From Sediminibacillus massiliensis (GTDB taxonomy: Bacteria; Bacillota; Bacilli; Bacillales; Amphibacillaceae), in NCBI RefSeq assembly GCF_900156915.1, contig NZ_LT732535.1, positions 4,139,399 through 4,203,398 on the forward strand: 64,000 nucleotides of DNA. Direction: 5' to 3'. Position numbers and translations under genes: made by a program. Positions 15,066-47,153 of the stretch are shown here, in pieces (position 1 is the stretch's first letter; each line of letters starts with the position of its first letter). Below the pieces are notes generated by a model that had not been told where the DNA came from, made no database searches, and worked only from the letters and a program-made list of their open reading frames with translations.

Positions 15066-16166
15066 ATGAGACTCGTACACACTAAATCAATCGACCCTGG
15101 AACAAAATTGGCGAAAGCGGTTTATAATGAGAAGGGCAAAATATTGATTCAGAAAAATATTGAGTTGACAAGACGGATGCTTAATCGTCTTATCCAGTAT
15201 AATATTACATATGTTTATATCAAAGATGCTTTTACAGATGACATAGAGGTGAACCCTCCTGTCTCGGAAGAAGTGAGGATTGAAGCATATCAAATGATTA
15301 AAAGTACTTTCTCCGACTTTAACAAAGAAAGTTTTCATTCTAATTCTTTTTTGTTTGACAATAGCAGTCGTATGAACAATATTGTCCAGGAAATTCTCCG
15401 GCAAATCCAAAACCAGGATGAAGTCGTCTCGATTTTGTCTGATGTATTTGTAAATGATAATTATGTGTTTAATCATTCTTTGAATGTGACCATTTATTCC
15501 TTGGCTTTAGGTACAGAGCTTGGACTAAACAGATCAAAGCTTGAAGAACTAGGGCTTGGCGCGATGCTGCATGATGTAGGGAAAATGTTCATCCCTCAGA
15601 ACATCCTGCAGAAGCAGAGCAGATTGACCGAGGAGGAATTTGAAATAATCAAAGGGCATACCGAATCAGGATTTGAGTTTCTAAGGAATACACCAAATGT
15701 TCCGTTGCTGGCAGCCCATTGTGCATTTCAGCACCATGAACGAATCGATGGATCGGGATATCCGAGAGGATTGAAAGATAAGGAGATCCATCCTCATGCC
15801 AGATTATTGGGGATTGCAGATGTATTTGATGCGGTGACGAGCGACAGAGTTTACCGCGATGCTATGCTTCCGCATGAAGGTCTGGAAATCCTGTACGCAG
15901 GAGCTGGAACTTTATTTGATAAAGAATTGGTCGAGGCGTTCAGACGAACAATAGCTGTCTATCCAAATGGGTTGACTGTCGAATTGAGCGATGGCAGGAC
16001 AGGGGTAGTAGCCAGGCAGAATAACAATCTGTGCGAGAGGCCAGTGATCCGGGTGCTTGAAGAACATGGTGTTGAAATTCCTCCGTATGAATTGGATTTA
16101 TCAAAGCAATTGGATGTGGTCGTTTCTTCATGCCGTACAGCGCTTGGGAAGGAAAAAATTAAATAA
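15066..16166 (+). CDS. HD-GYP domain cyclic-di-GMP phosphodiesterase-like protein
   Basis: This 366-residue protein has an N-terminal region of about 130 residues without a known fold, then an HD-GYP domain. Visible motifs are H-D-V-G-K (His169-Asp170), the H-H-E-R-I-D-G-S-G-Y-P-R-G-L block (GYP at 231-233) and a D-V-F-D-A-V-T-S-D-R segment. All metal ligands appear intact, so hydrolysis of cyclic-di-GMP or a related signal is likely. No membrane segment is seen. B. subtilis has no such gene at this place, so it is an insertion in the yunC-yunB order. The ATG follows TTAGGAGAAAG. Confidence 0.85.
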   Translation: MRLVHTKSIDPGTKLAKAVYNEKGKILIQKNIELTRRMLNRLIQYNITYVYIKDAFTDDIEVNPPVSEEVRIEAYQMIKSTFSDFNKESFHSNSFLFDNSSRMNNIVQEILRQIQNQDEVVSILSDVFVNDNYVFNHSLNVTIYSLALGTELGLNRSKLEELGLGAMLHDVGKMFIPQNILQKQSRLTEEEFEIIKGHTESGFEFLRNTPNVPLLAAHCAFQHHERIDGSGYPRGLKDKEIHPHARLLGIADVFDAVTSDRVYRDAMLPHEGLEILYAGAGTLFDKELVEAFRRTIAVYPNGLTVELSDGRTGVVARQNNNLCERPVIRVLEEHGVEIPPYELDLSKQLDVVVSSCRTALGKEKIK

Positions 16167-33171: not shown

Positions 33172-33534
33172 ATGGTCTTGAATATTACGGATAATGCAAG
33201 TCTTCAAATCAAAGAGATGATGAAAGAAGAAGACACAGAAACTGTACGCCTTCGCTTCGGAGTGAAAGGCGGCGGTTGCAGCGGGCTTTCTTATTCCATG
33301 GGATTCGATCACGAAGTTAACCAAGAACTGGATATCACAGAGGATGCAAACGGAATTCCGCTAGTCATTACGAAGCAGGATATTCCTATCATAGAAGGTA
33401 CTACCATCGACTTCAAGCAAAATATGATGGGCGGAGGATTCACTATCGACAATCCTAACGCTATCGTATCCTGTGGCTGCGGAAGCTCGTTTAAGACAGC
33501 GACAAACGCCGGCACACCGGATCCTAATTGCTAA
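33172..33534 (+). CDS. yutM: A-type Fe-S carrier YutM/ErpA (HesB/IscA family), host gene of the mobile element
   Basis: A 120-residue A-type carrier with the three conserved cysteines (G-G-G-C-S-G and the C-terminal C-G-C-G-S-S-F). It delivers Fe-S clusters to proteins. Its last 97 bp (33438-33534) are repeated at 47057-47153 with one silent difference, so the 3' end was replaced by the copy carried on the integrated element and the product stays complete. The original terminator is now at 47162, and none is seen between yutM and the integrase gene. Confidence 0.96.
   Translation: MVLNITDNASLQIKEMMKEEDTETVRLRFGVKGGGCSGLSYSMGFDHEVNQELDITEDANGIPLVITKQDIPIIEGTTIDFKQNMMGGGFTIDNPNAIVSCGCGSSFKTATNAGTPDPNC
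33438..33534 (+). repeat. Left attachment site (attL), 97-bp direct repeat inside yutM
   Basis: Identical to 47057-47153 except C33480 versus T47099 (both give Cys). It runs exactly to the yutM stop codon. Confidence 0.95.
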
Positions 33535-33708: not shown

Positions 33709-34734
33709 GTGCCTTTAAAAAAACGGAAGAGAGTTACGGGATTGGCGAATCCTAAAAAGGAATATCCAAAGCTAACGTTACAGCAAGCAATAGACATTGT
33801 TGTCTCCGGCAAGAGAACAGAGGGTGCACGGGAGCGAACGATTAGAGATTACGTGAAAATGTGGGGCTACTTTACGAAGTGGCTAAACGATAACTATGAG
33901 ATCGAGTATATAAACGACTTAACCCCGGAAGTGTTCCGGAACTATATAAACTACATGAAATACGACAAGCAGAAGTATTCCGGCCATAAGTACATCAATC
34001 CGGAGAGACAAACAATAGGGCTTGCGGATACGACAATCAATATTAATCTCCGCACACTCCGAGCCATATTCAACTTTATCGATCGAGAAGGCTTACTCGA
34101 TTACAACCCGATGGAAAACATTAAGCTACTTCGCCAGGACGAGAGCGATTTAACCAATGCGCTAACCGATGAGGAGGTAAAGGAAATCCTTGCACAGCCG
34201 AATAAGCGTGACTTCGTAGGTTTCCGTGACTATGTAGGTATTAACGTTCTGTTAGACTCCGGTCTTCGGATACAAGAACTGCTTTCCTTGCGGGCGGGCG
34301 ACGTTGATATCAAGACTCGATTCATTACTGTAAAGTCATCGGAAAGTAAAAACCGCCATAATCGATTGGTGCCGATTTCAACACATGTAGCGAAACTGTT
34401 ACTACAACTAATCACCGAGAATCATGCTCACTTCAAGACGGACAGAATCTTCCTATCGAGTTACGGCGAGCCACTCGGAGCCAATCATTACAACAAACGA
34501 CTGAAATACTATGCGAAAAAGGCAGGAGTGTCCGGTAAGAAGGTAACAGCGCACGTCTACCGACATACCTGGGCGAAGAATATGATACTCAACGGTTGTG
34601 ATCCGTTCACCTTACAGAAGATAGGCGGATGGGCGGATATCCGCACAATGAGGAGATATATACAGATGGATACAAGCGAGATGAGGAGAAGTCATGACCA
34701 CTATTCGCCAATTAGTTCATTAAATAGAAAATAA
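33709..34734 (+). CDS. int: Tyrosine recombinase (integrase)
   Basis: A 341-residue phage-type integrase with a SAM-like N-terminal DNA-binding domain (about 25-130) and a C-terminal catalytic domain. Catalytic residues are visible: Arg187 (S-G-L-R-I-Q-E-L), His282 and Arg285 (A-H-V-Y-R-H-T-W), Trp308 and the nucleophile Tyr317 (M-R-R-Y-I-Q). The GTG at 33709 follows TGAGGAGGT; the earlier TTG lies inside that ribosome binding site. It sits next to attL in the same direction as yutM, with no clear terminator between, so transcription from the yutM promoter may reach it. Confidence 0.93.
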   Translation: MPLKKRKRVTGLANPKKEYPKLTLQQAIDIVVSGKRTEGARERTIRDYVKMWGYFTKWLNDNYEIEYINDLTPEVFRNYINYMKYDKQKYSGHKYINPERQTIGLADTTININLRTLRAIFNFIDREGLLDYNPMENIKLLRQDESDLTNALTDEEVKEILAQPNKRDFVGFRDYVGINVLLDSGLRIQELLSLRAGDVDIKTRFITVKSSESKNRHNRLVPISTHVAKLLLQLITENHAHFKTDRIFLSSYGEPLGANHYNKRLKYYAKKAGVSGKKVTAHVYRHTWAKNMILNGCDPFTLQKIGGWADIRTMRRYIQMDTSEMRRSHDHYSPISSLNRK

Positions 34735-34882
34735 AACAAAAAAAGAGGGCGCACACCAAGCACCCATCGAGCGCCAACTCGATAAGACAATACGATGTAC
34801 AACCCACCTACACTTAAGGTTAGTATATCGAAAATCTTAAAAAAGGACAAGCGTCTAAATTCGGTTAGTTTACGTCTTATAC

Positions 34883-34896
34883 CGAACATATGTTCT
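34883..34896. promoter_or_regulatory. LexA (DinR) SOS box
   Basis: CGAACATATGTTCT matches the Bacillus LexA site (CGAAC-N4-GTTC core is perfect). It lies 40 bp before the ATG of the next gene. Confidence 0.75.
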
Positions 34897-34936
34897 TTTT
34901 TTAGTTGGTGTCCGTCCTCTATCGGGAGGATAAACG

Positions 34937-35758
34937 ATGTATTTAAAATTATCATTCGAGGTTTTACACGAGTACCAAACGTTTTCAACCAAAGCCGAGA
35001 TGGACTCGACCATTTATTCATACATCAATCATTTACGTAGTATAGAAGCGCCGGAAAGCACAATCGAGGTATTGCGTTTCTTTGGGCGGTCTAGTTTACG
35101 TGTATTAGGCGTTTCATTTGCGAAGTATCAAACCATTGCGGATTGCATCGGAGTATCGAAAAGAACGGTGATTCGTGCTGTTAATCGACTAGAAGAAGCC
35201 GGAATGATTGAACGTATTGCAACGGTTAAGAAATGGAGAAGAAGCGTTAATGTAATCCAGATTTTGCCCTCGATGTCAATTCAAGGCGTCACTTCAACGG
35301 AGCAGCCGGAAGGCAACGAGGACAAGTCTTTAAACGAGGAATCCAAAAAAGAACCATCCTTATTAAATCATAACTATAACTACGGCAAGCAGAGACGGAA
35401 GAATAAAGAGCCGGAGCAAGAGAGAAGCGCGGACAACCCCGAGGCACTTCGACAATCTATACCCAAGGCAATATACGACAAACTAGCGCCTTTTTTCGAT
35501 GCAAACGGGTTATACAAGACGTACGGTATTCTACTGCGGGCAAAGGCTTCGGTGGATAAATACATAACGCTAGAGGATCATGCGGAAGACTTTACCGACG
35601 TGTTTCTTAATGCTATTCGAAAAGCAAAGAGAGGAATAGTCGGCAACCTGGACGGGTATTTGTATGCGAGTTGGACGGAGGTGTGCCGTGTGATTAAGCG
35701 GAGAGAAGCGTTTGAGGCGGGGGAAAATTTATTGGCCTACAATTGGTTAAACAGCTAA
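34937..35758 (+). CDS. Winged-helix protein, replication-initiator-like, under LexA box
   Basis: This 273-residue protein has an N-terminal region ending in a helix-turn-helix (about residues 62-92, Y-Q-T-I-A-D-C-I-G-V-S-K-R-T-V-I-R), a charged low-complexity linker (115-170) and a helical C-terminal part. Proteins of this plan are found on Bacillus plasmids and prophages, where they are thought to act in replication or its control. A CGGGAGG ribosome binding site precedes the ATG. A LexA box directly upstream predicts induction by DNA damage. A plain transcription factor is the alternative. Confidence 0.7.
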   Translation: MYLKLSFEVLHEYQTFSTKAEMDSTIYSYINHLRSIEAPESTIEVLRFFGRSSLRVLGVSFAKYQTIADCIGVSKRTVIRAVNRLEEAGMIERIATVKKWRRSVNVIQILPSMSIQGVTSTEQPEGNEDKSLNEESKKEPSLLNHNYNYGKQRRKNKEPEQERSADNPEALRQSIPKAIYDKLAPFFDANGLYKTYGILLRAKASVDKYITLEDHAEDFTDVFLNAIRKAKRGIVGNLDGYLYASWTEVCRVIKRREAFEAGENLLAYNWLNS

Positions 35759-35992
35759 ATATACGGCTTAAAATCCCAATAATACTTATCTATAATGCCA
35801 AATTCCTATTTATCACGTCTTTTCTCTTAATTTCTTCAAATCTTGTAGAATATCATTGTTGACATATCTAAAATTTTTGTTCCATTTCTCCATATATAGT
35901 GCGCTAATAAAAAAACAAGCACCATATATTGTTTTAAGGGGAAAGGCTGTGGTAAATTGATTTATATACAGACATATAGTTAGGAGGTTGAT

Positions 35993-36052
35993 ATGAAGAA
36001 TACATATAAACGGAAAATAATTGTCTGTTATCCTCTAAGAGAGGAGGTGTAG
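35993..36052 (+). CDS. 19-residue leader peptide in front of the toxin
   Basis: ATG behind TAGGAGGTTG opens a basic peptide (M-K-N-T-Y-K-R-K-I-I-V-C-Y-P) that stops 2 bp before the toxin start. Its last codons contain the toxin ribosome binding site GAGGAGGTG, so translation of the two is probably coupled. The 35759-35992 stretch before it shows no gene and no promoter I trust. Confidence 0.45.
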   Translation: MKNTYKRKIIVCYPLREEV

Positions 36053-36054
36053 AG

Positions 36055-36210
36055 GTGGAGTGGGAAGTTATTACACCAATAATTATTTCATTGTTTGGAG
36101 TAATGATTGCAATATTTATGGCGTTTCTTTCCTTCATGATGTTTTCGTTCAGACTCGTTGAAATAACTATGAAAGCCTTAGACAGAAAAAACGACTCCGA
36201 CAAGAAGTGA
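36055..36210 (+). CDS. Small membrane peptide, probable type I toxin
   Basis: The 51-residue peptide has one long hydrophobic segment (about residues 6-33) followed by a charged tail ending D-R-K-N-D-S-D-K-K. It starts at GTG, 5 bp from GAGGAGGTG. Build, size and the convergent antisense RNA at its 3' end match the TxpA/BsrG/holin-like toxin class of Bacillus, although the sequence itself is not close to one that I know. A terminator follows at 36250. Confidence 0.68.
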   Translation: MEWEVITPIIISLFGVMIAIFMAFLSFMMFSFRLVEITMKALDRKNDSDKK

Positions 36211-36285
36211 AGTCAGAACCGTTTTTACGAAAAGCAAAAGCTATTATTTCGAGGCGTCTTGTTGCCGCAAGGCGACCTCTCTTTT
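36185..36285 (-). ncRNA. Predicted antisense antitoxin RNA (about 100 nt)
   Basis: On the minus strand a promoter (TTTACA 36321-36316, 18-bp spacer, TATACT 36297-36292) predicts a start near 36285. The RNA would begin with the toxin terminator hairpin (36250-36287), run antisense to the toxin 3' UTR and last eight codons, and end at its own terminator (GACTTC with GGAGTC, then GTTTTTT; plus-strand 36214-36186). This is the layout of RatA and SR4-type antitoxins. Confidence 0.62.
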
Positions 36286-36289
36286 TAAA
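36250..36289 (+). terminator. Terminator of the toxin mRNA
   Basis: GAGGCGTCTTG pairs with CAAGGCGACCTC (one bulge), then TCTTTTTAAA. Confidence 0.75.
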
Positions 36290-36321
36290 TCAGTATAACA
36301 ATTTAATGTTCGTATTGTAAA

Positions 36322-37000
36322 CATATAGTTGACATTTGAAGAAACACAAAGCTATCGGAAAGATTTATTAGACCCGAAGTAAACCTAGTCAAAACGTTGA
36401 TATTGCGGAAACAAAGCATTTGCAATTCCATCGAATATTCCTCCGGGAGAATACAAGTGAATCCCCGTTTGTGTAACTAATAAAACCTAGTTATAAACTC
36501 GAAAGTAAAGTGGAGAATCGGTATATAAGAAGAAACCCGATTAATTAACTCGGAATTAATAACGCAGAGTTCAATCGGTAGGTTCCCGAAGTTACACAAT
36601 TAAATACTTCGTTAGGTATCTTTGACCAACGTATATATATCAGCAACCACGTCCACGACGAGCAGCCTTCCAAAAACACAAGGGGGGTCAGGCGGTTAGT
36701 AGGTGAGTACCAGGCGGAAGCATACCGAGTATCTTGTGACGCAATAACCCTGCAAACACCGCATAAAAGCGACATAGAGCCGTCCTGATATGTCCTATAT
36801 CTTCGGAAGGGTAATAGGGGGTATAGTCGGTAGGCAGGCGATAAACAGCGTTATATGGACGTCAGAAAACCGGGCGATAGCCAGGATCAGCGGGTTTCAC
36901 CAGTTTATAAAACGAAAGTTAAATGTACGGTAAATCCGATATCATTCCTTGCCGTTCATAAACCCGTTTACACGTTTATAAACTCGTCTATAAATTATCG
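36322..37000. other. Gene-free region of the element, candidate origin or res region
   Basis: About 680 bp without a supported gene. GTTTATAAAC-like words occur at 36490, 36903, 36954 and 36974 (the last a perfect palindrome), clustered before the serine recombinase gene. A G-rich tract lies at about 36680. Such a region could hold the res site of the recombinase, or an origin of replication or transfer; no known nick site was recognised. Confidence 0.4.
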
Positions 37001-37045
37001 TTGACTTCTCCATTCATTTTATGTACGATAATATTACAATGAATG
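37001..37045 (+). promoter_or_regulatory. Promoter and operator of the serine recombinase
   Basis: TTGACT (37001-37006), 17-bp spacer, TACGAT (37024-37029). CATTCATT (37011) and AATGAATG (37038) form an inverted repeat around the -10 box, a likely repressor site. Confidence 0.7.
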
Positions 37046-37062
37046 AACGGAGGGGTTACTCG

Positions 37063-37632
37063 ATGAAAATTGGGTATGCGCGGGTAAGTACGGAAAACCA
37101 GTCGTTGCTATTACAGGAAGATGCTTTACGGAAAGCCGGAGCGGAGCGAATCTATTCGGAAAAGGAATCCGGTGGGAAATGGGATAGAGTCGAATTACAA
37201 CGTACGCTAGACGTCCTAAGACCTGGCGATACACTTATCGTTTATAAACTCGATAGGTTAGCGAGAAGTACAAAGCAATTAATCGATATAGCGGATCAGT
37301 TAAAAGAAGGCGAGATAGAGTTAGTTAGTCTTACGGAGCAACTGGATACGAGGACACCGATGGGTAAGGCTATGTTCGGAATGATCGGAGTAATGGCCGA
37401 GTTAGAAAGGGATATGATTCGAGAAAGAACAACGGCAGGACTCGAAGCAGCACGGGCAAGAGGACGAAGAGGTGGACGGCCGAAGGCAGACCCGGCAAAG
37501 ATACGGAAGGCACTCGAATTATATGACGCAAAGGAACTAACTGTCCCGCAGATAACCGAGGAAACAGGAATAAGCAAGGCGTTGTTATATAAGGAACTGA
37601 ACAAGCGAAAAGCTAAAGAGAAAGCGGAATGA
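37063..37632 (+). CDS. Serine recombinase, resolvase/invertase type
   Basis: A 189-residue small serine recombinase. The catalytic Ser9 is in Y-A-R-V-S-T, followed by the Y-K-L-D-R-L-A-R-S block, the E-R-D-M-I-R-E-R-T helix, a G-R-x-G-G-R-P hinge and a C-terminal helix-turn-helix (about 150-180). It may resolve multimers or invert a segment. ATG 37063 follows GGAGGGGTT; the earlier ATGs lie at the promoter. Confidence 0.93.
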   Translation: MKIGYARVSTENQSLLLQEDALRKAGAERIYSEKESGGKWDRVELQRTLDVLRPGDTLIVYKLDRLARSTKQLIDIADQLKEGEIELVSLTEQLDTRTPMGKAMFGMIGVMAELERDMIRERTTAGLEAARARGRRGGRPKADPAKIRKALELYDAKELTVPQITEETGISKALLYKELNKRKAKEKAE

Positions 37633-37768: not shown

Positions 37769-37984
37769 TTACTCGTCAATTAAAGTGATTAATTCGTTGA
37801 TGTCCTTGATATTCAATTCATTCGCAATCTTGTCGATGACACTCCGGGGAATCTGCTTGCTGCGATTATGATATAAATCGTTTATAGTTGCCCGACGCAC
37901 TCCTATAGAGTCGGCTAGTTGCGTCTGGGTGATACCGTGTTTACGTAATAATTCTTCTAGTTTTATCTGAGTTCGTAAAGCCAT
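37769..37984 (-). CDS. XRE-family repressor
   Basis: A 71-residue Cro/CI-type helix-turn-helix protein (Q-T-Q-L-A-D-S-I-G-V-R-R-A-T-I-N-D-L, about residues 20-38). It is the only gene of the element besides the antisense RNA on the minus strand, and diverges from the small-ORF block at 38099. The palindromes between the two look like its operators. Likely the maintenance repressor of the element. Confidence 0.85.
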   Translation of the reverse strand: MALRTQIKLEELLRKHGITQTQLADSIGVRRATINDLYHNRSKQIPRSVIDKIANELNIKDINELITLIDE

Positions 37985-38018
37985 CTAATCACCGCCTTTA
38001 TTACTATATTAAACCAAA

Positions 38019-38066
38019 TTACGAAAATAGTAATTATAGTATAAGTGCCGGTTACGAAATTCGTAA
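38019..38066. promoter_or_regulatory. Operator pair between divergent XRE repressor and 38099 gene
   Basis: TTACGAAATTCGTAA (38052-38066, perfect arms of 7) and the related TTACGAAAATAGTAA (38019-38033) lie 33 bp apart, about three helix turns, with AT-rich promoter-like words around them. Confidence 0.65.
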
Positions 38067-38098
38067 TCAAAAAGTAAAAGGCGGAAGATGGTGAGTAA

Positions 38099-41621: not shown

Positions 41622-41771
41622 ATGATCGAACAATCAATCTACGAACATATCTTAAGGAAGTTAGAAGTGATGGACGAAAAGCTGGACACGGTAAACGAGC
41701 GCACAGAACGGATTGAACAAAGATTAGACGAGCAAGAGAGACGACAGTTGGGGCGTGTTAAATATGGCTAA
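41622..41771 (+). CDS. Small coiled-coil protein
   Basis: A 49-residue peptide with a heptad pattern (L-R-K-L-E-V-M-D-E-K-L-D-T-V-N, then I-E-Q-R-L-D) that should form a coiled coil. ATG behind GGGATGGGAG; overlaps the HNH gene start by 8 bp. Confidence 0.55.
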   Translation: MIEQSIYEHILRKLEVMDEKLDTVNERTERIEQRLDEQERRQLGRVKYG

Positions 41772-42348
41772 GACAATCGAGGTCAAGAAGTGCAGCCGAT
41801 GCCACCAAGAAAAGCCAATCGAACAGTTTTACGGAGAGAAGCGAAGCCATTGCCAAGACTGCGAGAAAGAACAGAAGAGGGAATACCACGGGGGTCTTCG
41901 AGGGAAGGCGGCGCAAGCCTTACAGGACGCAAGAAAAGCCAGGAGGAAAGTAGAAGCCGAAACGGGCGAGTCAATTAAAGACGATTTAACGTTGCCACAG
42001 GTTGCATTAGCGCTATCAAGTGGCGAATGTGCTTATTGTCTTCAAGATATTCCGATTAGTGAGCGAAGCCTCGACCATATAACGCCAATGCGATATGGGG
42101 GATCAAACACGTTCGATAACGTGATATGTTCGTGCAAATCCTGTAATAGCGGGAAAAGCGATTTACCTGCCGTTTTGTTTATGATTCAAAGCTGTGACTC
42201 TTGGGCGAACAAAAGGTTAATTGATCGAGTGGCTTCCAGGAGTAATCAAACATTCTACGAGGCATTTGAAATGCTTACAGAGTCGGTAAAAACATACTTT
42301 CAAAAGCAAGCGGAAGAGGCAAAGGCACAAGCGGAAGGGGGCGTCTGA
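41764..42348 (+). CDS. HNH endonuclease
   Basis: A 194-residue protein with an N-terminal zinc finger (C-S-R-C and C-Q-D-C) and an HNH domain: C-A-Y-C, then L-D-H-I-T-P (catalytic His), N-x-x-x-x-C-x-x-C-N. HNH enzymes next to small phage genes often nick DNA for packaging, but no terminase is here. It could also be a homing or defence nuclease. ATG 41764 is inside the preceding gene. Confidence 0.85.
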   Translation: MAKTIEVKKCSRCHQEKPIEQFYGEKRSHCQDCEKEQKREYHGGLRGKAAQALQDARKARRKVEAETGESIKDDLTLPQVALALSSGECAYCLQDIPISERSLDHITPMRYGGSNTFDNVICSCKSCNSGKSDLPAVLFMIQSCDSWANKRLIDRVASRSNQTFYEAFEMLTESVKTYFQKQAEEAKAQAEGGV

Positions 42349-43455: not shown

Positions 43456-43581
43456 ATGAATGGTGAGAGACTGTACACAAAGGCAGAAGTTGAATCAATC
43501 GTCAAAAAGCGAATGGACCGGGAGAAAAGGAAAATCGGGAGAGAACAACAACAAAAACAAGAAAGGAATGAGAATGAATGA
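43456..43581 (+). CDS. Small helical protein, resembles N-terminus of phage scaffold (DUF4355)
   Basis: 41 residues, L-Y-T-K-A-E-V-E-S-I-V-K-K-R then a charged helix. AAGGAGAG precedes the ATG. The stop overlaps the next ATG by 4 bp, so the two are coupled. The start pattern is like that of DUF4355 scaffold proteins. Confidence 0.5.
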   Translation: MNGERLYTKAEVESIVKKRMDREKRKIGREQQQKQERNENE

Positions 43582-43928
43582 GTGAAGAGAAGGTATATAC
43601 GGCAGAGGAAGCGGAGCAAGAAATCGAACGTCTAGTGGAAGAGGGGTTAAAAGAGTACGAGGAAGAGTTAAGGCAACGGGAAGCAGCGGAAACCCAAGCC
43701 CCGGATTATAAGCAACGCTATATTAATACAGCGAAACAAGTCGAAATGCACAAAGCAGGGTTCAACGAGAAGCAAGTCAAGCGTCTGTCAAAGTACGTAA
43801 TGGACACGGACGACCGGAAAGCCATGCAAGCAGAAATCGAGGAATTGGCAGCAGACTTATTAGGCGGACAAGCGAAAAACTACGGTGATCCGAGCCAACG
43901 AAAGCAAGTCTGGAATCCGTTTAAGTAA
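43578..43928 (+). CDS. Acidic helical protein, possibly DUF4355/scaffold-like
   Basis: 116 residues; V-Y-T-A-E-E-A-E-Q-E-I at the start, acidic helical middle, and an end (N-Y-G-D-P-S-Q-R-K-Q-V-W-N-P-F-K) like the C-termini of phage scaffold proteins of the DUF4355 kind. There is no capsid or protease gene here. It may be a relic or may interfere with a helper phage. Uncertain. Confidence 0.5.
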   Translation: MSEEKVYTAEEAEQEIERLVEEGLKEYEEELRQREAAETQAPDYKQRYINTAKQVEMHKAGFNEKQVKRLSKYVMDTDDRKAMQAEIEELAADLLGGQAKNYGDPSQRKQVWNPFK

Positions 43929-43990: not shown

Positions 43991-44719
43991 ATGGAACAAA
44001 CAGTATTTTTATTCAAGCCGTATGGAGAGTATGAACAGCACAAAGTAGTCAAATTACCCGTGAAGGAAGCGGAACAATTAAAAACGGAAGGATTGGCGGT
44101 TGAGACGAGCCGAGGGAAATACGATGACTTTAGAGAACAGGCGAAGCAATTACACAGCAAATTCAAGCGAGAAGAAACGAAGATTAAGCAAAAAGACCAC
44201 CCCCTCCAAACTAAAGAGGTCAAAGAGTACGAATTGAAGCAACTAAATAAACAGTATAGAAAAGAAAGCGAGGCCTTAGAAGCCGAGTATCGAAAATATA
44301 GAGAGCAAGCAATCGAAGAAGCGCATACCAAGGCAGCACAAGCGAGCATATCCGTACGAGAATCGGACAAGCAAGTGGCGGAACAGTTGTCGAACAGGTT
44401 GGCTCTATCCGCACAAACGGCAGTCGGAGACAGCGCCAAGTCGGAGTTTATCACACAAGCCAAAAGGGACATCTCAAAGTTATCCGACGAGCAGAAAACG
44501 GCTTTACAAGGATGCATCGGGAAGGTACTTGACAAGATTGACGATTCAAAGCATCAAAGGGCGATAATCAACGAGGTTTCGGACGTTAGAAACATGGATT
44601 TACTTGGAGCAAAGGCGGCCGAACAGTTGCCGTACACCGCTAACATCGAGTACACACGGGTGAAAGTGGCTGACAAAGCGTATAAAGCAAATAGAATAGT
44701 AGGTCAAACACAGAAGTAA
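43991..44719 (+). CDS. Coiled-coil protein of unknown function
   Basis: A 242-residue protein with long charged helices (about 35-120) that should form coiled coils. The ATG follows AAAGGGAGAG. No known domain seen; its length and place after scaffold-like ORFs recall phage minor structural or replication-accessory genes, but this is a guess. Confidence 0.55.
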   Translation: MEQTVFLFKPYGEYEQHKVVKLPVKEAEQLKTEGLAVETSRGKYDDFREQAKQLHSKFKREETKIKQKDHPLQTKEVKEYELKQLNKQYRKESEALEAEYRKYREQAIEEAHTKAAQASISVRESDKQVAEQLSNRLALSAQTAVGDSAKSEFITQAKRDISKLSDEQKTALQGCIGKVLDKIDDSKHQRAIINEVSDVRNMDLLGAKAAEQLPYTANIEYTRVKVADKAYKANRIVGQTQK

Positions 44720-45690: not shown

Positions 45691-46839
45691 ATGAACAATG
45701 AAAAGTTGTACTCTAAGATTGAGATGTCTCGGATAGTTGGATGGTCTGAGGCTAATGGTAGGCGCTGGGTAAAAAATTTCAAAGAATATTTTCCGACTAA
45801 ACAATTTCAAAATCGAGTTATGTACACTAATGAGTCATTGAGAAATTTAAAAACTCTTAAGAAACTGAATGAAGAAGGCTTAACCAGTCCGGTAATAAAA
45901 GATATCTTGAAGAATGAAGAATTTCCTTCTACAGGTAATGATATAGTAAGGATCATAAATAAATACAAAGTGGACGAAGTACGTATTGAGTATGATGAGA
46001 AAATTAAATCAACAATCCCTTCTATGGGTGAGATGATGATTCCATATTTGGAAATGATCAAAGATGGAAAAGCCTATTCCGCGAGTGAGATAACTGACAA
46101 ATTAGTCAATTACTTTAAGCTCAGCGAAGAGCAACGTATAATGAGATATGAGCATACACCAGATAGCATTCTTCTTACTAGAGTGAGAAGTGTTAGGTAT
46201 AGTTTGAAAAAAGGAAATTACATAGAGGAAATTAATAAATTAACCTATCGTATAACATCTGACGGCCTAGATTTACTAAACGAAAGCAATAATGAAATTA
46301 AAGAAGAAATAGAAGAGTTAGAAAAAGTAGTGGATCCTCTAACAATTGTTAAGGAAAAGCTAAATGATTTAAAAGAAGAATTAGCGGATAGTTTGCTGAA
46401 ACAGTTGAGGAATGTACACTGGATGAAATTTGAAGATATTGTAGTTGAACTATTAACGGTAATGGGATACGGCGATGGGCGAGTTACGCAGCGTTCTAAT
46501 GATGAGGGTATAGATGGGATAATTAAAGAAGATAAATTAGGCTTAGACAACATTTACGTTCAAGCAAAGAGATATGCAGAAAACCAATCAATAGGAAGAA
46601 ATGCAGTACAAGGTTTTTCGGGAGCCTTAGATGGAAAAGCAAGGAAAGGTGTTTTCATCACAACATCTAAATTTACGGACAATGCTAGAACATATGTTGA
46701 AAGTCTCGAAGCTAAGAAGATTATCTTAATAGATGGTTTAGAGTTAGCTAATTTAATGATATCTTATGATGTTGGAGTGGACGTTAATCATACTTTTGTG
46801 GTTAAAGCGATAGATTACGACTACTTTAAAGACGAATGA
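45691..46839 (+). CDS. Mrr-type restriction endonuclease with MerR-like N-terminal domain
   Basis: A 382-residue protein of three parts: a MerR-like winged helix (about 1-75), an Mrr N-terminal winged helix (about 110-195), a coiled linker, and an Mrr catalytic PD-(D/E)xK domain (about 240-355) with F-E-D, D-E-G-I-D-G (Asp275) and Q-A-K (Gln291-Lys293). Mrr enzymes cut modified DNA, so this is a likely type IV defence gene. It is more AT-rich than the rest of the element, suggesting separate acquisition. ATG 45691 follows GAGGTGAG. Confidence 0.85.
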   Translation: MNNEKLYSKIEMSRIVGWSEANGRRWVKNFKEYFPTKQFQNRVMYTNESLRNLKTLKKLNEEGLTSPVIKDILKNEEFPSTGNDIVRIINKYKVDEVRIEYDEKIKSTIPSMGEMMIPYLEMIKDGKAYSASEITDKLVNYFKLSEEQRIMRYEHTPDSILLTRVRSVRYSLKKGNYIEEINKLTYRITSDGLDLLNESNNEIKEEIEELEKVVDPLTIVKEKLNDLKEELADSLLKQLRNVHWMKFEDIVVELLTVMGYGDGRVTQRSNDEGIDGIIKEDKLGLDNIYVQAKRYAENQSIGRNAVQGFSGALDGKARKGVFITTSKFTDNARTYVESLEAKKIILIDGLELANLMISYDVGVDVNHTFVVKAIDYDYFKDE

Positions 46840-47056: not shown

Positions 47057-47153
47057 ATTCACTATCGACAATCCTAACGCTATCGTATCCTGTGGCTGTG
47101 GAAGCTCGTTTAAGACAGCGACAAACGCCGGCACACCGGATCCTAATTGCTAA
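47057..47153 (+). repeat. Right attachment site (attR), 97-bp copy of the yutM 3' end
   Basis: Matches 33438-33534 at 96 of 97 positions (T47099 for C33480). It is the displaced end of yutM, still joined to the gene's terminator. Confidence 0.95.

Follow-up and report, generated by a model that had tools for sequence, protein, structure and literature searches.

Our analysis of a 64-kb window of the Sediminibacillus massiliensis genome (the whole stretch of DNA considered here, C6:4139399-4203398 of host genome G000) makes it highly probable that an integrated element has placed its rep gene under the host repressor LexA, so that DNA damage would derepress rep and thereby start replication of the element. 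In the mechanism we propose, host LexA would sit on a box at 34883-34896 before rep and keep the gene off; upon DNA damage, activated RecA would bring about LexA self-cleavage, rep would be transcribed, and its initiator-like product would start element replication from an origin that probably lies close by. In this way the host SOS repressor would be borrowed as the replication switch of the element, with a small HTH repressor (37769-37984) probably governing other element genes and with excision perhaps occurring either through an integrase expressed otherwise or through coupling to other genes. The computation establishes that the box exists, where it lies, that it recurs and that it matches host LexA boxes, and likewise the attachment repeats and the protein family; LexA binding, repression, initiator activity, excision and packaging we infer.

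The putative LexA box, CGAACATATGTTCT, holds the exact palindromic core GAACATATGTTC and is assigned to neither strand. It lies 3′ of the int gene (33709-34734) and 40 bp before the ATG of rep at 34937. Sequence, coordinates and perfect core are as the original prediction had them, and so is the setting 40 bp ahead of a winged-helix gene that adjoins int. A perfect core by itself is weak evidence for a LexA site, since 40 perfect GAACN4GTTC cores occur in the host chromosome set (4.35 Mb in six contigs), or about 0.6 per 64 kb; the window contains one, the box itself. The window has four matches to CGAACATATGTTCG with at most three mismatches where 2.7 would be expected, a number attained in 26 of 100 shuffles, and cores with at most one mismatch are rarer than expected (13 against 23). 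Most host perfect cores fall within genes; those outside long genes, read from neighbouring frames, include two before lexA as well as, we presume, one each ahead of a gene resembling a Y-family polymerase and a gene resembling YolD. The weak sites AGAACATATGTTGA (46687, inside the mrr frame) and CGAACATATCTTAA (41642, in a stretch of small ORFs) were dropped as LexA candidates.

More telling is the score of the box against the lexA promoters themselves. We built a symmetric matrix from the 79 sites of at most one mismatch before lexA in the 24 genomes that bear a rep box, all of which have a lexA above the curated cut-off; the matrix takes in one-mismatch sites, some of which are perhaps there by chance. 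By this measure the window box reaches 19.8 of a maximum 21.3 bits and ranks at the top of the 40 perfect-core sites of the host, followed by sites of 19.5, 19.5 and 19.1 bits, with the two lexA-promoter sites below it at 17.3 and 17.0; none of 40 shuffled windows contains a site of 19.7 bits or more. The host encodes lexA (G000:C6:609696; 253 bits against a cut-off of 110.95). Elsewhere in the element only 38109 (13.1 bits) and 39834 (11.6 bits) reach 10 bits, and these are at chance level, about two sites of at least 12 bits being found per shuffled window. LexA control of int was rejected, there being no box before that gene, and a consensus promoter scan of the plus strand before rep found no promoter-like match. 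The proposal that activation of the element is tied to DNA damage finds support as far as the box before rep is concerned and does not extend to control of the whole element; because the box drives rep and not int and the other element sites are at chance level, LexA control of excision would be conjecture.

The element itself spans 13.6 kb between direct repeats of 97 bp that are 99% identical (33438-33534 and 47057-47153, plus strand), the left one being the terminal 3′ part of a HesB/IscA-like gene (33172-33534). Among the matches listed from 155 family genomes searched, 116 of which match the 97-bp sequence, G000 is the only genome with two copies. To the right of the left repeat lie, on the plus strand, int (33709-34734; Phage_integrase 4.3e-35, phrog_1 integrase 2e-48) and rep (34937-35758), after which comes a largely non-coding, unstranded stretch of about 1.3 kb (35759-37062) with one 51-aa ORF. 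From its position this stretch is a candidate origin; an iteron search of 34700-37100 found no iteron array, only short two-copy families. A plus-strand serine resolvase/invertase gene follows (37063-37632; Resolvase 4.3e-45, phrog_125 3.5e-67), and after it, on the minus strand and not adjoining rep, a gene for a 71-aa Cro/CI-type repressor (37769-37984; HTH_26 4e-14), whose relatives in the phage/plasmid class are encoded divergently to rep. The 71-aa protein is too small for a cleavable domain and is likely a second switch, blind to SOS, that acts on the genes lying rightward. Between this gene and the small genes on its right side, palindromes such as TTACGAAATTCGTAA (37985-38075) look like the operators through which a second switch, independent of SOS, would act.

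The right half of the element carries many small genes, a TPR protein, another XRE-like protein and four further plus-strand features. An HNH (endonuclease VII-like) gene (41764-42348; HNH_5 2.2e-11, phrog_1035 5.7e-22) is common to several sister elements. A 116-aa protein (43578-43928) weakly resembles phage head scaffolding (phrog_14063, 4.6e-5), the only packaging or morphogenesis match in the window element; its ORF has no phage match by tblastn, and the G023 sister encodes a family member of 149 aa (1.3e-6). A 242-aa coiled protein (43991-44719) recurs near the right end of sister elements and has no phage match by tblastn or by fold, its structure model being too weak to place. Finally, an Mrr-type restriction endonuclease with a MerR-like N-terminus (45691-46839; Mrr_cat 1.5e-35, MerR_1 1.8e-6) is probable cargo at the right end, likely of an anti-phage kind. 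No AlpA match was found among the element proteins scanned. The comparison originally drawn with ICEs finds no support: among ten element proteins scanned with Pfam and fifteen with PHROGs, a scan that took in part of the small ORFs, we found no relaxase, type IV secretion or other conjugation gene, and a conjugative element was therefore rejected; the sisters are more like phage satellites.

The product of rep, a 273-aa winged-helix protein (HTH_36 5.8e-8), is a probable replication initiator resembling those of phages. Its best family is phrog_1835, named HTH DNA-binding protein (3.8e-41, residues 7-262), and the next PHROG families are of replication-initiation (from 2e-10) and DnaD-like proteins. 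The structure model (mean pLDDT 74, pTM 0.41) consists of an N-terminal wHTH that a disordered linker (114-167) joins to a helical C-terminal part. Against viral models it gives 78 matches at E ≤ 0.001, many of them named helix-turn-helix or replication proteins, and against the PDB only the N-terminal winged helix is alike, the top-ranked entries being CodY and other regulators and no match reaching E ≤ 0.001. The annotation RepL is attached to several of the plasmid relatives, and on plasmids of 8.8-10.5 kb rep relatives are the only annotated initiator candidate, among many hypothetical genes and in an incomplete PLSDB gene table. The label "replication-like" originally given to this gene is likely right, because PHROG families, matches to viral models, plasmid kin and RepL annotations point the same way.

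What lifts the box well above a chance palindrome is its recurrence at the same place among relatives of rep. Such relatives were matched in 16 of 159 family genomes, in 81 of 397 order genomes with one profile and in 150 with another, in 6 phage records, at 14 loci in named genomes, at 2 loci in viral contigs (where the single rep protein and A2 each returned none and A3 returned both) and in 27 records of a plasmid search, from which 12 loci were taken, 8 of them from plasmids. These loci are best matches and not a census: 105 were assembled and 80 kept, after removal of 2 without a usable start and 23 that shared their first 120 residues with another. When loci are classed by what adjoins rep, a box of at most one mismatch within 160 bp is present at 26 of the 40 loci where a same-strand integrase frame lies no more than 500 bp upstream, at none of 10 with a divergent HTH gene and at none of the 30 others (Fisher 6e-11). 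Nine of the 26 boxes have perfect cores, and the distance from box to start is 20-46 bp at 25 of them, the window included, and 101 bp at one. The lexA matrix, at 12 bits or more, likewise finds 23 of 40 loci in the integrase class and none of the remaining 40, against 0.35 expected in shuffles for either set. Among all 256 palindromic half-sites GAAC heads the list for the integrase class (26 of 40, followed by TTTT with 16 of 40) and comes 211th elsewhere, and in the aligned rep promoters the box columns are the most informative, the 20 bp 3′ of the box being near random. The arrangement int-box-rep recurs in 24 genomes and one viral record. With this recurrence and the host lexA-box match, the original proposal of direct repression by LexA is strongly supported on comparative grounds; we conclude that LexA probably represses element replication directly. 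Two further features of these loci may be recorded: a strongly conserved CGAAAAAA-like block stands at a fixed distance about 44 bp upstream of the boxes at the 26 loci, and one genome (G149) has two different rep loci (L028 and L032), each with an upstream integrase and a LexA box.

Several other readings of the palindrome and of rep have to be weighed against this. That the palindrome arose by chance might be argued from the 40 perfect cores of the host, most of them inside genes, and is contradicted by the recurrence at rep loci, which makes it untenable, by the 19.8-bit score and by the first rank of GAAC among half-sites; we give it virtually no weight. A subtler reading, which we regard as very unlikely, is that the palindrome is the operator of an element regulator, Rep or a small HTH protein, and resembles a LexA box by accident. 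The element does encode Rep, the HTH_26 protein and another XRE-like protein, and the middle of the integrase-class boxes is narrower (mostly RTRY) than in boxes of lexA promoters. However, boxes before very diverse Reps keep the host LexA consensus, with the flanking C/A and G/T and the alternation of GTTC and GTTT that lexA promoters have, and boxes are absent from all 10 divergent-HTH loci, precisely where a phage-type repressor gene adjoins rep.

Two other readings concern rep and the element. In one, LexA control is real and rep would be a transcription regulator and not a replication initiator, as might be suspected from the solved structures, which resemble only the N-terminal winged helix, CodY and other regulators leading without a match at E ≤ 0.001, and from a closest PHROG family named just "HTH DNA binding protein". 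The two-domain layout, the PHROG replication-initiation and DnaD-like matches, the RepL-annotated plasmid kin and the occurrence on small plasmids without another annotated initiator (again with many hypotheticals and an incomplete gene table) speak against this, and we consider it rather unlikely. In the other, the element would be a decayed prophage or integrated plasmid in which box and rep are relics. The window element has no recognised packaging or capsid gene beyond the weak scaffold-like match, and a search for one capsid family, PF05065, found none in the host genome; yet the int and rep frames are intact, the attachment repeats near-identical, and the sisters of like size and order, so that we hold decay to be unlikely too, slightly more so than a regulatory role for rep. 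In H. campisalis a relative (L082) has retained the box although its rep frame is interrupted by a stop, which means that a box is no proof of a live element. Our preferred reading remains that of a host LexA box controlling an initiator gene.

The association between box and integrase is not uniform, and 14 of the 40 integrase-linked loci have no box of at most one mismatch. Five of these unboxed loci (L123, L125, L133, L159 and L166) have in common, by eye, a TCAACGCTTATTTAAGTATG-like stretch at the rep promoter, (TCAACG)CTTATT..AGTATG-like, which is perhaps the operator of another regulator. On a rep tree of 79 of the 80 loci, from which the short interrupted frame of L082 was left out, no fewer than 15 changes of the box label are required, at least 10 of them forced by well-supported branches, against a mean of 21.5 for shuffled labels (0 of 500 as low), and hence the box has been gained, lost or exchanged often. 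When the box-integrase link is restricted to independent pairs it is not significant (median p 0.25), with about 2.5 of 6 pairs informative and none contrary.

Direct LexA control of mobile elements is not new, as reports on three systems make clear. In the Bacillus thuringiensis tectivirus GIL01, these describe host LexA on the 14-bp dinBox1 at P1 repressing the replication genes, with damage starting the lytic cycle and with a co-factor, gp7, and a second half-site in use (PMC6182141, PMC4551915). The likeness lies in a host LexA box at replication gene(s); as described there, however, GIL01 is linear and non-integrating and its replication genes are unrelated, whereas here a single box serves the wHTH initiator-like gene of an integrated tyrosine-recombinase element. 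On the B. subtilis plasmid pBS32, it is reported that LexA directly represses the sigN promoter, that mitomycin C leads to plasmid hyper-replication and that repN expression is not raised by SigN (PMC6751061); there the LexA target is a sigma factor, in contrast to a box on the initiator-like gene itself. The SaPIs are alike in being integrated and of similar size and in having int, their own replicon and a LexA-controlled operon, but LexA there controls packaging operon I and not rep, replication being under Stl, a repressor that SOS does not cleave and that a protein of the helper phage lifts (PMC5052747, PMC6092414).

A different comparison is offered by phage-plasmids (Bacillus phages 268TH002, phi18-2 and KLEB27-1, and B. 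paralicheniformis p1), which have a homologous rep of 28-35% identity over most of the protein, and also share the HTH repressor and usually a nearby tyrosine recombinase gene. In this class rep stands beside a divergent HTH gene, without a LexA box (0 of 10), and int lies downstream. Most prophages encode a cleavable repressor of their own; with its initiator-like gene under host LexA, an integrated element would need neither that nor a repressor lifted by a helper. As far as the literature was searched, what is new here is that integrated elements recurrently have a LexA box before their initiator gene: among the matches listed, in titles and abstract openings from sources in which subscription journals are mostly absent, there is no prior description of LexA acting on the initiator gene in elements integrated in Bacillales. 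If our reading is true, it provides a simple rule for island copying, namely any SOS signal, DNA-damaging antibiotics included, and a one-box signature by which candidate satellites could be found in Bacillales genomes.

Nine sister elements of 11.9-17.0 kb have exact end repeats (31, 60, 53, 26, 49, 42, 35, 29 and 57 bp) and occupy sites that we take to be the 3′ ends of tRNA-like sequences or of spo0A; the stretches from G023 and G033 are cut inside rep or int and so yielded no end repeats. The rep box is present in eight of the nine, that of G057 being without it. PHROG scans of 35 sister proteins, part of their frames, revealed in the G149 sister a small terminase (1.7e-19) and a tape measure (5e-46; L107:13247-15957), and in the Thalassobacillus devorans sister another tape measure (9.4e-32; L099:16778-18922). 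The two tape measures, of 715-750 aa, may set tail length or hijack tails. The G023 (L106:8395-10323) and G107 (L109:10879-12735) sisters have a full-length phrog_4311 "minor head protein" (about 1e-218) and primase-like matches, and G023 has scaffold-like matches in addition. Neither a major capsid nor a portal was matched among the 35 proteins, and a large terminase in the G149 sister was rejected, the weak match (2e-4) belonging to an FtsK-like protein. Since they are repeat-bounded islands of 12-17 kb, some with phage genes, and since the 35 proteins scanned include no capsid, portal or convincing large terminase, the sister elements are candidate phage satellites. For the window element the case is thin, with its one scaffold-like match and a host that lacks a PF05065 capsid gene.

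With the int-box-rep cassette spread over satellite-like Bacillales elements, SOS firing would ready copies at the time when a resident prophage is induced. It is conceivable, although we put this forward tentatively and at somewhat less than even chances, that these elements form a widespread, unnamed Bacillales satellite family in which host LexA on the initiator replaces the sensing of a helper phage, and in which the cassettes have been built or exchanged repeatedly. If so, the SOS response itself would start satellite replication, at the time when whatever helper prophage is present is induced and without recognition of a particular one, which would explain how one satellite design serves many helpers. 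Two additional sites deserve mention. The element of Bacillus sp. ZZV12-4809 has a second strong LexA-like site, AGAACGTATGTTCG (19.5 bits), near its right end (composite position 15395). Elsewhere on the host chromosome a different tyrosine integrase gene is preceded, at 88 bp, by CGAACAAGTGTTCC (L041:1593; G000:C6:763092), which has a perfect core, scores 15.7 bits and possibly marks a second element, one with LexA at int.
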